Program-made: the position numbers and the translations under genes | Part shown: one piece after another, positions 40,602 through 44,730 of the stretch | Numbering within the stretch: the first letter of the stretch is position 1 | How the letters are laid out: the number at the start of each line of letters is the position of its first letter | Source of the DNA: Candidatus Hydrogenedentota bacterium | GTDB lineage: Bacteria; Hydrogenedentota; Hydrogenedentia; Hydrogenedentales; JAEUWI01 | Direction of reading: 5' to 3' | DNA length: 64,000 bases | Assembly: GCA_016791475.1 (NCBI GenBank) | Contig: JAEUWI010000004.1 | Coordinates: 62,001 to 126,000 of the forward strand | The notes under the pieces: generated by a model | Databases searched by the model: none | The model's input: only the letters and a program-made list of their open reading frames with translations | Told to the model about the DNA's origin: nothing

Positions 40602-41996
40602 TCATTTCTTCCGCAACGGGAAAAGGGTAGAATCCACATGCGCCTCCTTCATTAACCCGGCAAGCTCCGCCGCCACCGCCGGAAACTCCGAAGCCCGATT
40701 GCGTGCTTCACCAGGGTCCTCTATCAGATTATAAAGCTCCAATGGACCATCCGGAAACTCCGCCACGTTCAGGCGTATTCCCTTCCACTCTCCTTTGCGC
40801 ACCGCCTGCTTCCCGCCCTGCTCCGTGAACTCCCAATACAAGTAATCATGTTTTTTCTGCGCGGCATCGTTACCCATAAGCGCCTGAACGTACGAGTGGC
40901 CATCGAGATCCGCCGGCGGGGAGGTCCCCGCAAGTTCCGCCGCCGTGGGCAGGAAATCCCAGAAGGCCGACACGTGGGACGAGGTCGTCCCCGGCTGGAT
41001 CCGCCCCTGCCACCGTGCGATAAGCGGCACGCGGATACCGCCCTCGTACAGATCGCGCTTGATCCCCCGCAGCGGGCCATTGCTGTCGAACCACGTGGGG
41101 TCGTTGCCCCCCTCCTTGTGGGGACCATTGTCGCTGCTGAAGATCACCAGCGTGTTCTCGTCGATACCCAGTTCTTTCAACAAGTCCAGCAAGCGCCCCA
41201 CGTCCCGATCCAGTCGCGACACCATGGCCGCCATATTCTTCTTGTTTTCCGGCCAGTCCCTGTCCTGGTAGATGCCCTGATCCGGCACCTCCATCCCCGC
41301 CTCGCCCGCTTCATTGTTCGCGTGGGGCAAGGTGAGGGCCCAATAGAGAAAAAAGGGTCGTTGAGCACTCCGCCGAACAAAGTCCAGCCCTTCCTGGGCA
41401 ATCAGATCGTGGCTGTACGCCACTTTTTCGCTCGCCACGCCCGCGCCCGATTCCTTCGGCTCCGGCACCACATTGTTCAGCGTCACACGCTCTTCGTTGC
41501 GCAGCAGAAAGGTCGGAAAGTAATTGTGGGCGTGCTTCTGGTCGAGGTACCCGTAGAAGTAGTCAAAGCCCTGGCGATTGGGAACGCCCTCTTCCCCCTC
41601 AACGCCCAGGCCCCACTTCCCGCACAACCCCGTCGCATAACCCGCACCCTTCAGCACCTCCGCCACCGTCACGTCCTCCGGACGCAGATTCACCCGCTGA
41701 TTCCCGCGAATATAACCGTGCCCCGTGTGCAGGCCCGTCATCAACGCGCACCGGCTCGGCGCACACACCGTGCTCCCCGCATAATGCTGCGTGAAGCGAA
41801 TCCCCTCCGCCGCAAGCCGGTCGATGTTCGGCGTCTGAATGTCCTTCTGCCCATAGCAACCCAGATCGCCATAGCCCAGATCATCCGCCAGGATATACAC
41901 GATATTCGGCTTCGATTCAGCCTTTGCCCTGTTCCCCAGCCCGGCAATGGCCAGGGTCGAAAGGCCGGTCGCGGCCAGAAAGTCTCGTCTGCGCAT
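40602..41996 (-). CDS. Tat-exported sulfatase (CAPSR type)
   Basis: 464 residues from ATG 41996, preceded by AAGGAGG. A twin-arginine signal MRRRDFLAATG opens the protein. The sulfatase signature Cys78-Ala-Pro-Ser-Arg carries the cysteine that is converted to formylglycine; metal residues lie in VYILADDLGYGD and SSDNGPHKEGG near 290. Hydrolyses sulfate esters, probably of a polysaccharide. No maturation enzyme is encoded in this window, so it must lie elsewhere. It precedes the PhoD-like gene by 13 bases. Confidence 0.93.
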   Translation of the reverse strand: MRRRDFLAATGLSTLAIAGLGNRAKAESKPNIVYILADDLGYGDLGCYGQKDIQTPNIDRLAAEGIRFTQHYAGSTVCAPSRCALMTGLHTGHGYIRGNQRVNLRPEDVTVAEVLKGAGYATGLCGKWGLGVEGEEGVPNRQGFDYFYGYLDQKHAHNYFPTFLLRNEERVTLNNVVPEPKESGAGVASEKVAYSHDLIAQEGLDFVRRSAQRPFFLYWALTLPHANNEAGEAGMEVPDQGIYQDRDWPENKKNMAAMVSRLDRDVGRLLDLLKELGIDENTLVIFSSDNGPHKEGGNDPTWFDSNGPLRGIKRDLYEGGIRVPLIARWQGRIQPGTTSSHVSAFWDFLPTAAELAGTSPPADLDGHSYVQALMGNDAAQKKHDYLYWEFTEQGGKQAVRKGEWKGIRLNVAEFPDGPLELYNLIEDPGEARNRASEFPAVAAELAGLMKEAHVDSTLFPLRKK

Positions 41997-42358
41997 GAAT
42001 TGGCCTCCTTCGGCACTCAGCACGGGTAAATACCGTCATGACCCGATTGTAGAGTCTGGGATCGGAAGTTACAAGGGGCTAAATCCAAGCTAATCCACCG
42101 GCTCCGCCGGCAAGGATTTATTAGGCTCTACCGTTCCGCCATGGTAAACGTTGGCTAGCGAACGAGTCGGGCCTAAGGGCTTTGATCGAATTTAAGTTGC
42201 CAACTTCGAGTTTCTGTGCGATTTTGAAATCGCTCTCGGCGTTATATTGGCGAGCGAAAAGCGATCCACGAGGCTTCAGATCGGAACAAAACTTGGCAAG
42301 TTTAAATTGGCCACCGCCCTAAGTAGCAACAAGCATTTGAAACGAAAGGACTGTATTA

Positions 42359-42495
42359 GCTCCGTAGGAGCGGCATATCGTAGCCCAGGGTGAAGCGAGG
42401 TACGAGCGGAACCCTGGGTATTGGATCGCAACAATTTCGAGCCCCAGCGGGGCGGCATAGGAGAACGAGGGAGTTCGTCCCCGGTCTTCTATGCC
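42359..42495. repeat. Tandem GCYCC-N3-GGRGC-GGCATA hairpin modules
   Basis: Module 1 at 42359-42418 has GCTCC-GTA-GGAGC-GGCATA followed by a perfect 8-base stem CCCAGGGT (42384-42391 with 42411-42418). Module 2, 82 bases on at 42441-42495, has GCCCC-AGC-GGGGC-GGCATA and closes by pairing GGCATAG (42454-42460) with CTATGCC (42489-42495). The T-A pair in the first stem becomes C-G in the second. Similar TAGGAGCGGCAT repeats are recalled from PVC-type genomes, where short frames through them are sometimes mis-annotated as proteins. Confidence 0.6.
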
Positions 42496-42697
42496 ATCCC
42501 CACGGGATTAAAAGTTATGGGCAGATATCCGAGGGTTCGCTCGTGCGCCGCTTCACCGCGGGCTACGATATGTCGTCCCTTCGCGACTAAACCCAACGAA
42601 GTCGTTTTGCATGTACCAGCGTGTTCGGTCCTCTGGGGTGGCCTTTCTGAAACCACTGGTTCTACCGGTGGTTACTGATTAAGTACAAACACGTACC

Positions 42698-42758: not shown

Positions 42759-43529
42759 ATGCGAGACGAAGTCCTCCAACCAGCGCCAAGCGAATACGCC
42801 GAGGCAACATCTGCGTCCAACGGCGAGCGCCTGTCCGTGAACCAGGTTATCAAACCAACCCGGATCTCCATTGCCGGTGAAGTCGCACTCTACGCCCTCG
42901 AATCCGTTCCCCTGGCCATCGGTATCGCGCTCGCGACCCAACTCTCCTGGCCCCTTGAACCCGACGAGCATTTCATTATCATTCCCGTCGCTATGATTAG
43001 CGGGGTTGGCATACCGGCCTTCTACCGCCTCGCGGACTACCTCCTGTGCCGTCGATACCGTGGCGAACTTCACTTCGACGGCTCCACCGTCGTCTGCATG
43101 GCCCCGGGCAAATCCCCCGAGTCCTTCACCCGGGGCGAAGTCCTGGGCTACTTCCCCCACCGCAACGAAGTGCTCCTGGTCGATGGCCGTACAATTCCCC
43201 TGCCCGGCTCCGGAACCCACCTCCGCTACCATGAATCGAAAATGGTCACGCCCTGGCTGAAAGCCTGGTGGCCGGAGATCGACCTGACCACAGCAATCAG
43301 CACCGCAGAGAAGGCCCAGGGCTGGATACGACACCTTCCCAATGCTGTAAAGGCGATCATAGGCACCACAGCTTTCTGTTGTATTCTTACTTCCTCTGAC
43401 TTCTCACTGGGAATTATGTTTGCCTCGATATTCCTGTTGTCTTACTTTCCCGACTGGATCGAAAACCGATTGCGTCGAAACGTCATGATTACCCTGGGCT
43501 CAGGGACTTACGCGCCCACAAGCACCTGA
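42759..43529 (+). CDS. Membrane protein, unnamed W-W/R-P family, member 3
   Basis: 256 residues. Cytoplasmic N terminus of about 35 residues with NQVIKP, two membrane segments (about 42-62 and 72-92), a soluble beta-rich domain (RYRGELHFDGSTVV, PHRNEVLLVDGRTIPLP, AWWPEIDL), then two C-terminal membrane segments near 205-235 ending in PDWIENRLRRNVMI. Very similar to the next gene. GGGAG precedes the ATG. The middle domain resembles a PH-like sheet in its alternation, but this is only an impression. Function unknown. Confidence 0.65.
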   Translation: MRDEVLQPAPSEYAEATSASNGERLSVNQVIKPTRISIAGEVALYALESVPLAIGIALATQLSWPLEPDEHFIIIPVAMISGVGIPAFYRLADYLLCRRYRGELHFDGSTVVCMAPGKSPESFTRGEVLGYFPHRNEVLLVDGRTIPLPGSGTHLRYHESKMVTPWLKAWWPEIDLTTAISTAEKAQGWIRHLPNAVKAIIGTTAFCCILTSSDFSLGIMFASIFLLSYFPDWIENRLRRNVMITLGSGTYAPTST

Positions 43530-43902: not shown

Positions 43903-44730
43903 ATGCAAGACGAAATCCTCCAACCAGAACCCGGCCAAAACGCCGAGCCAACATCTCCCTCCAGCGGCGAGCGCCTGCCCGTGAACCAGGTTATCAAGCC
44001 AAGCGGGCGCGCCATTGCGGGTGCGGTCGTACTCTACGTCCTCCAGGCTCTTCTTCTGGCCGTCGGCCTCTTTGTTGCCGCCGAGTTCTGGTGGCCCCTT
44101 GACCCCGACTTCTACATCATGGTCATTCCCGTAGCCATCACTACCTGGGTTGGCTTCCTCGGCGTGTACCACTTCGCGGACTTCCTCATCTTTCGCCGAT
44201 ATCGCGGCGAGCTTCACTTCGACGGCGCCACGGTCGTCAGTAAGGTCGTGGACTCATCACCCCAGTCTTTTACCCAGCGCGAAGTCCTGGCCTACTTCCC
44301 CCACCGCAACGAAGTACTTCTGTTCGATGGTCGTACCATTCCCCTGCCCGTCTGCGTGACCCACCTTTACTGCCACGATCCGGCAATGGCCACCCCGTGG
44401 CTGAATGCCTGGTGGCCGGAAGTGGACCTGGCCAGAGCAATCCGCATTGCAGAGAAGGCCCAGGGCTGGATACGGCACATTCCCAATGCTGTAAAGGAAA
44501 TCATACTCACCGTAGTTTTCTGTTGTTACCTGCAACTCTTTCCGTTCGCAAGCGAAATCATGCTTTCCTCGCTTTTCCTGCTGCTTTTCTTTCCCGACTG
44601 GATCGAAAATCGATTGCGTAGAAGCGTCATGATTGCGTTCCAGAGTAACCAGGGCACCGGGAGCGGCCTGGCGCAGGAGGACCATTCAGGAGCAAGCCCT
44701 TCGGAGCCCGCCCAGCATGATCGTCCTTAG
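43903..44730 (+). CDS. Membrane protein, unnamed W-W/R-P family, member 4
   Basis: 275 residues, paralogue of the preceding gene. Identical or near-identical blocks: NQVIKP, RRYRGELHFDGATVV, YFPHRNEVLLFDGRTIPLP, AWWPEVDLARAI, EKAQGWIRHIPNAVKE and FPDWIENRLRRSVMI. Membrane segments fall in the same places. The C-terminal tail is about 25 residues longer and hydrophilic. Its end overlaps the next gene by 14 bases. Function unknown. Confidence 0.65.
   Translation: MQDEILQPEPGQNAEPTSPSSGERLPVNQVIKPSGRAIAGAVVLYVLQALLLAVGLFVAAEFWWPLDPDFYIMVIPVAITTWVGFLGVYHFADFLIFRRYRGELHFDGATVVSKVVDSSPQSFTQREVLAYFPHRNEVLLFDGRTIPLPVCVTHLYCHDPAMATPWLNAWWPEVDLARAIRIAEKAQGWIRHIPNAVKEIILTVVFCCYLQLFPFASEIMLSSLFLLLFFPDWIENRLRRSVMIAFQSNQGTGSGLAQEDHSGASPSEPAQHDRP

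Follow-up and report, generated by a model that had tools for sequence, protein, structure and literature searches.

The closest described systems are the REPtron, REP-BIME and REPIN arrangements of TnpA_REP (RAYT) transposases, in which hairpins carry a 5' tetranucleotide foot, inverted pairs surround a Y1 transposase gene, and further inverted pairs are dispersed without a gene. In the available text of PMC8266576, the foot tetranucleotide of TnpA_REP systems contributes to recognition and helps to select where single strands are cleaved, and the available text of a 2018 survey gives Y---NP as the signature of these class 2 enzymes (PMC6006769). The same text describes a subclass 1.2-type Y1 group near IS200 that has neither insertion sequence properties nor a REP partner (the REP entry for subclass 1.2 is "no"), is found mainly in Cyanobacteria and Bacteroidetes, and comprises proteins of about 150 aa with DH[IV]H, WQ and Y---Q--HH motifs and a C-terminal extension (PMC6006769). 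It further gives IS200/IS605 elements separate left and right ends on the same strand, places 20 of 26 TIRYTs in subclass 2.1, and describes a class 3 of TnpA_Y1 from Planctomycetes and Acidobacteria that is present in many copies per genome, with atypical structures close to the gene, a YV[VI][AENY]EQ motif and a CnGA foot (PMC6006769). Inverted repeats also surround the tyrosine transposase genes of TIRtrons (TIRYT), and the text of PMC3733652 reports GTAG repeats from PVC species and, in other bacteria, REP dimers within longer palindromes.

Here we describe an intergenic locus in a 64,000-nt stretch of DNA (hereafter the window) from a Candidatus Hydrogenedentota bacterium (GCA_016791475.1, contig JAEUWI010000004.1). 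In our reading the locus is a transposase-free inverted pair of three-hairpin units that is REPIN/BIME-like and belongs to a REPtron-like family served by an IS200-type TnpA and not by a RAYT. Among the titles and abstract openings listed by the literature search, none reports a three-hairpin partner for subclass 1.2.

Anatomy of the Inverted Pair

The complete unit is about 105 nt long and reads TTAG-H1-GGCATATCGTAG-H2-22 nt-H3-GGCATAG, so that three ordered hairpins follow one another and a tag, GGCATA, is repeated after the outer two (Table 1). Unit 1 is complete and is matched by a covariance model at G000:C4:104354-104460 (own genome, 89.9 bits). Unit 2 is inverted and decayed, its H2 keeping 5 of 8 pairs and its H1 having one mismatch when read by eye from the letters, and the model matches it with 73 bits (G000:C4:104489-104592). 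The arms of the pair are 74% complementary. The upstream H2 beside an intact TnpA gene elsewhere in the genome (L009) differs from the window H2 by one base. The pair sits between divergent reading frames; the right-hand frame and 43903-44730 are tandem paralogous genes with similar upstream sequence and 78% DNA identity over about 800 bases.

The original prediction placed two tandem modules here, 82 bases apart, and both are present in the letters (GCTCC-GTA-GGAGC-GGCATA at 42359-42377 and GCCCC-AGC-GGGGC-GGCATA at 42441-42459), as are the change of the middle pair from T-A to C-G and the 8-bp second stem CCCAGGGT/ACCCTGGG. The hairpins are real but the units are delimited otherwise here, the two modules being H1 and H3 of one unit that is followed by an inverted unit absent from that prediction. 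Likewise, GGCATAG and CTATGCC, proposed as the second stem of the second module, are complementary, but their pairing would join the tails of two units, CTATGCC being the tail of the inverted one.

Table 1. Coordinates of the inverted pair and its surroundings in the window.
Feature	Positions	Strand	Description
Reading frame	40602-42023	-	left of the pair
Larger repeat frame	42081-42680		AAATCCAAGC...TTACTGATT, 600 bp, round the pair; ends recur with other interiors
Unit 1	42356-42460	+	complete: TTAG foot, H1, linker, H2, spacer, H3, tail
H1, unit 1	42359-42371	+	GCTCC-GTA-GGAGC (first module of the original prediction)
Linker, unit 1	42372-42383	+	GGCATATCGTAG: tag GGCATA and GTAG foot of H2
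H2, unit 1	42384-42418	+	long hairpin CCCAGGGT...ACCCTGGG
H2 stem, unit 1	42384-42391 with 42411-42418		8 bp
Spacer H2-H3, unit 1			22 nt
H3, unit 1	42441-42453	+	GCCCC-AGC-GGGGC (second module of the original prediction)
Tail, unit 1	42454-42460	+	GGCATAG, second copy of the tag
Centre	42461-42488		28 bp between units 1 and 2
Unit 2	42489-42590	-	inverted, decayed
Tail, unit 2	42489-42495	-	CTATGCC
H3, unit 2	42496-42508	-
H2, unit 2	42529-42562	-
Linker, unit 2	42563-42574	-
H1, unit 2	42575-42587	-
Arms of the pair	42356-42421 / 42525-42590
Reading frame	42759-43529	+	right of the pair

Dispersal, Covariation and Ends

The three-hairpin unit is a dispersed repeat with sharp ends and covarying stems. 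The genome (7.7 Mb) holds 28 occurrences of the string GRCATATCGTAG and 0 of the same string read backwards; the signal of the shorter GGAGCGGCATA is weaker (10 occurrences vs 4 in the control), and in the window alone a search with the linker 15-mer allowing up to 3 mismatches found 4 sites, 2 of them exact, against 2.68 expected, which is not significant and was set aside as evidence. A covariance model (R1) matches 74 places in the own genome at E<=0.1, a few with other tag sequences. Copies are probably undercounted because the repeat breaks the assembly.

Covariation was assessed in 19 own-genome copies chosen by linker sequence and not by pairing, all of them complete (L023 was dropped as incomplete). 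Their stems are 92.1% paired, although H2 pairing is probably understated because MAFFT shifted the 3' arm of H2 by one column in some rows. Seven of 16 stem pairs vary on both sides, a number reached by 1 of 500 shuffles, and the covariation score is reached by 0 of 500; the count of further pair types does not exceed the shuffles (431 of 500 as high). G-U pairs occur at one H1 pair in 6 of the 19 copies and at one H3 pair in 5.

At the upstream edge, information is 0.32 bits at position -18, 0.11 at -17 and 0.97 at -16, where the TTAG foot begins, in a set of 59 copies with differing upstream flanks that includes a few chance linker matches. Downstream, it drops after the eighth base of the tail, GGCATAG(G), among 36 copies of which four are not true H3 by eye.

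Gene-free pairs in the own genome fall into tag groups: GGCATA as in the window, GGAACTTAG (L288-L293, resembling L009), a looser ACA group (L296-L298, resembling L011) and GGCAGTCAATAG (L064, L070, L300, L306), the last with no TnpA seen. In several loci (L288, L289, L291, L293, L175, L177) a small palindrome, TTCGCCGCGGCGAA or TCCGCCGCAGGCGGA, stands in place of one H2 arm. Tandem arrays in a single orientation occur in L042 (G000:C46:3073-3836, spacing about 165 bp) and in congener contig G001:C4, and own-genome contigs C15, C23, C31, C32, C43, C46, C88 and C100 end in or near unit copies.

Units Around Y1 Transposase Genes

Y1_Tnp is matched at 14 places in the own genome. Among them, L009 is an intact TnpA gene with inverted units on both sides, whose tag is CGGAA instead of GGCATA, and L011 and the frameshifted L012 have the inverted-unit layout with other tags; the flanks of L010 show no clear unit. 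L013-L019, L021 and L022 are other, longer Y1_Tnp genes, several with quite different inverted flanking repeats. Units carrying the window's own tag flank L020, whose TnpA has stops. Because this sole TnpA found between units with that tag is broken, the window-tag family is probably inactive in its own genome or dependent on another enzyme.

Congeners carry complete copies. Inverted units with GNCATATCGTAG enclose intact TnpA genes of about 150 aa in L212 and L213 (both G003) and L214 (G002), and coordinates indicate a further intact case between units in G001. The gap that holds the gene is 547-561 bp in four congener cases and 553 bp in L020, compared with 26-31 bp in 17 gene-free close pairs picked from G002 and G003 and 28 bp in the window. 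The position of the 28-bp centre of the pair is that of the tnpA gene in complete copies of congeners. R1 matches at E<=0.001 number 21, 64 and 36 in the three congeners.

A search for empty sites with the window neighbourhood and with L213 gave no clean case. A sulfatase-like gene (named by eye) is 74-76% identical in three congeners, with a match that ends before the intergenic region. L053, a larger frame that lacks a unit, was considered as an empty site and rejected, its break not lying at the unit's ends.

Related Transposases in Other Phyla

The three-hairpin layout recurs beside related transposases in several phyla, built there from hairpins and tags of other sequence. We surveyed the best 80 of 269 relatives in named genomes, picked by similarity to the own-genome TnpAs, whose record titles include Planctomycetota, Verrucomicrobiota, Acidobacteriota, Chloroflexi-type and other bacteria. 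The remark in the original prediction that such sequences are widespread in PVC-type genomes holds in part: the architecture, with other tags, is present in Planctomycetota and Verrucomicrobiota records, and other phyla have it too; the comparison is one of architecture and not of the exact string TAGGAGCGGCAT.

With a strict detector at a score of at least 22, modules were found upstream of 38 of these best 80 relatives and in 34 of the 78 flanks downstream, against none in 80 distant stretches or in 158 shuffles. At a score of at least 21 it returned 78 modules in 54 of the 80 loci, 24 of them on both sides; control counts for the strict detector exist at 22 and above, and about six of the 78 modules were judged mis-assigned (e.g., L095, L121, L126, L127, L134 upstream, and L152). 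A looser detector at a score of at least 20 found modules in 55 of 80 loci; in the controls it scored 13 of 522 stretches taken at a distance and 9 of 790 after shuffling. No module of at least 21 was present on either side of 26 of the 80 loci, nor any with the looser detector in 25.

The linker ends in TAG, CAG or AAG in 74 of the 78 modules and is 10-13 nt long in 74, and the commonest H2-H3 spacer is 23 nt. The sequence following H1 matches that following H3 at 3.38 of 7 positions vs 2.79 when shuffled (0 of 2000 as high; 74 modules). TnpA identity correlates with linker identity (rho 0.46, 0 of 2000; 51 loci), and linkers on either side of one gene share 6.0 of 8 bases vs 3.0 between loci (23 loci), although physical linkage alone could also yield both the correlation and the likeness of the two sides. 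These cross-species modules were left out of the covariation evidence because they were selected by pairing.

Among 60 genomes, the own genome counted, 41 have R1 matches at E<=0.001. Matches and TnpA occur together in 34, matches only in 7, TnpA only in 6 and neither in 13 (Fisher p 2e-4), so one partner lacks the other in 13 of 60; with one genome per genus the counts are 22, 5, 4 and 8 in the same order (p 0.008). By eye, a gene on a Persicobacter plasmid (CP012861.1, Bacteroidota) shows the layout on either side, its H2 being unrelated in sequence, and a TnpA gene on a Bernardetia plasmid does not show the layout. A related TnpA with a DHTH motif (L286, NZ_CP147018.1, Bernardetia) has a different inverted repeat, AGTTGCAGAGCAACGTAATATT.

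By their motifs, the flanked enzymes fit TnpA_Y1 subclass 1.2. Among the best 80 of 269 relatives, WQ and Y..Q..HH are present in 80 of 80 and [DN]H[VI]H in 76. The IS200/IS605 model NF033573 scores 9 of 10 tested TnpAs over its cut-off (L011 is below, at 40.1 vs 55), the REP-transposase model NF047646 leaves 10 of 10 under its cut-off, five with no listed match, and PDB relatives by sequence include ISHp608. The proteins resemble the published subclass in length, motifs and C-terminal extension; unlike the available text of the survey, which gives it no REP-like partner, we find three-hairpin units in many flanks, and our members, chosen by similarity, come mostly from PVC and Acidobacteria records (PMC6006769). 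Class 3, which our loci resemble in host phyla, structures near the gene and copy number, was rejected on the Y..Q..HH motif and the NNAG feet, since neither its published motif nor its CnGA foot fits here (PMC6006769, available text). The TIRtrons share with our loci the inverted repeats round a tyrosine transposase gene, and H3 of the GGAACTTAG family has GGGGTGAC, which agrees with the TIR motif GGGGWSAS; a three-hairpin unit does not appear in the available text of PMC3733652.

Larger Repeats Enclosing the Pairs

Many copies of the unit lie inside larger repeats. Exact patterns for the ends of the window-type frame occur at 13 right-end and 9 left-end places (L051-L072). The ends bear hairpins and are constant, and the interiors hold a unit pair, another unit type or, in one case, almost nothing; seven frames with both ends measure 176-600 bp. 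No target duplication was seen at the ends as set for these frames. In every left end inspected, AAATCC is preceded by T.

Pairs with the GGAACTTAG tag sit in a MITE with inverted ends of about 25-30 bp and 8-bp duplications, which are exact in 3 and 7/8 in 4 of 12 distinct frames, as counted from the flanks. Its inverted ends, GGTTCATCCGGTTTGAGCGTAC, give 25 matches at up to 3 mismatches and 0 in the control, and its centres hold inverted unit pairs of different tag groups, including the ACA-type pair L297, or other DNA (L288, L289, L291, L293, L297, L308, L315). Other inverted ends, GTCATTACCCATAAGT, surround a unit pair in L231 (G003:C384), and one such end adjoins a unit pair in the own genome (L304, G000:C9). 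Part of the dispersal of units may be passive, carried by the larger repeats that enclose them.

Interpretation

We consider that the window pair is a transposase-free inverted pair of a unit that partners a subclass-1.2-type Y1 (HUH) TnpA, with a probability of roughly 0.75. The presence of this kind of repeat on both sides of the transposase gene in many bacteria probably indicates the DNA on which this little-understood enzyme acts. Complete copies are two inverted units enclosing tnpA, and reduced copies keep just a centre of about 26-31 bp, as in a REPIN or BIME. When the strand becomes single the hairpins would fold, and a TnpA dimer may then recognize hairpins with NNAG feet together with the family-specific tag after H1 and H3, here GGCATA. 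Its tyrosine would cut beside the tag and the unit would be moved or copied, gene-free pairs depending on TnpA supplied in trans. We infer binding, cutting and movement by TnpA from this arrangement, and the NNAG feet and repeated tag are putative guide and cut-site elements by analogy with the TnpA_REP foot (PMC8266576, available text). A cut-site prediction from published guide rules was dropped, CA and CT being too common in the tags. Against the partnership stand the loci with no module on either side, the mis-assigned modules, the 13 of 60 genomes with a single partner, the Bernardetia TnpA without the layout, the fact that linkage by itself would let TnpA and flanks vary in step, the lack of a clean empty site in our searches and the many copies in larger repeats.

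The last of these points raises the possibility that the inverted pairs are passengers spread by the enclosing elements, with TnpA minor in present dispersal. The recurring ends of the 600-bp frame round the window pair, and the MITE with its 8-bp duplications and two tag groups, speak for such carriage, but pairs and single units also lie outside frames (L030, L032, L036, and the arrays in L042), pairs occur within different frames, and frames leave the conserved link to tnpA across phyla unexplained; we therefore regard this account as rather unlikely. That the units are what remains of the two ends of an ordinary IS200/IS605 element after loss of its gene is improbable. It would suit the transposase family, which is that of IS608 and ISDra2, and the scores and the ISHp608 relative given above; the flanks, however, are inverted copies of one three-hairpin unit, which IS608 and ISDra2 do not have, instead of separate left and right ends carried by the same strand, and units are found alone and in arrays.

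Two further accounts are very improbable. A classical REP of a class 2 TnpA_REP, with H2 and its foot as the REP, would explain why GTAG immediately precedes H2 in the window family and would agree with the GTAG repeats of PVC species (PMC3733652, available text). The window family does have a palindrome with a GT[AG]G foot, inverted pairs and dispersed copies, but GTAG is not kept across loci, where the foot is NNAG, and the enzymes, with Y..Q..HH and not Y---NP, stay under the REP-transposase cut-off. A structured RNA repeated by coincidence (a regulator, a terminator or a small RNA), slightly less probable again, would account for covarying stems with G-U pairs. Yet the window copy lies between divergent reading frames and not after a gene, and Rfam gives 0 matches in the window at gathering thresholds. 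Of the original prediction of a structured RNA or DNA repeat, the structure, covariation and repetition stand, and the outcome named there as refuting it did not occur, since both additional copies and covariation were found; mobile or transposase-bound DNA fits better than RNA because the units flank Y1 transposase genes as inverted pairs.

The original observation is in this way confirmed and enlarged, and its reading moves to a REPIN-like inverted pair tied to a subclass-1.2-type TnpA. Tentatively, and at somewhat less than even odds, subclass 1.2 TnpA_Y1 proteins would cease to be orphans and would serve a third type of element that acts through single-stranded DNA, beside IS200/IS605 and RAYT-REP: the substrate would be an ordered triple hairpin, specificity would be set by one enzyme-specific cleavage tag shared by the outer hairpins and not by the hairpin sequences, and inverted pairs would seed gene-free families and lie in the centres of other mobile elements. 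If the units are substrates, the subclass 1.2 Y1 transposases gain a testable function, and hairpin repeats of a kind common between genes in several phyla are explained. The system would then represent an intermediate between an insertion sequence and a domesticated REP system, in which enzyme and DNA tags vary together.
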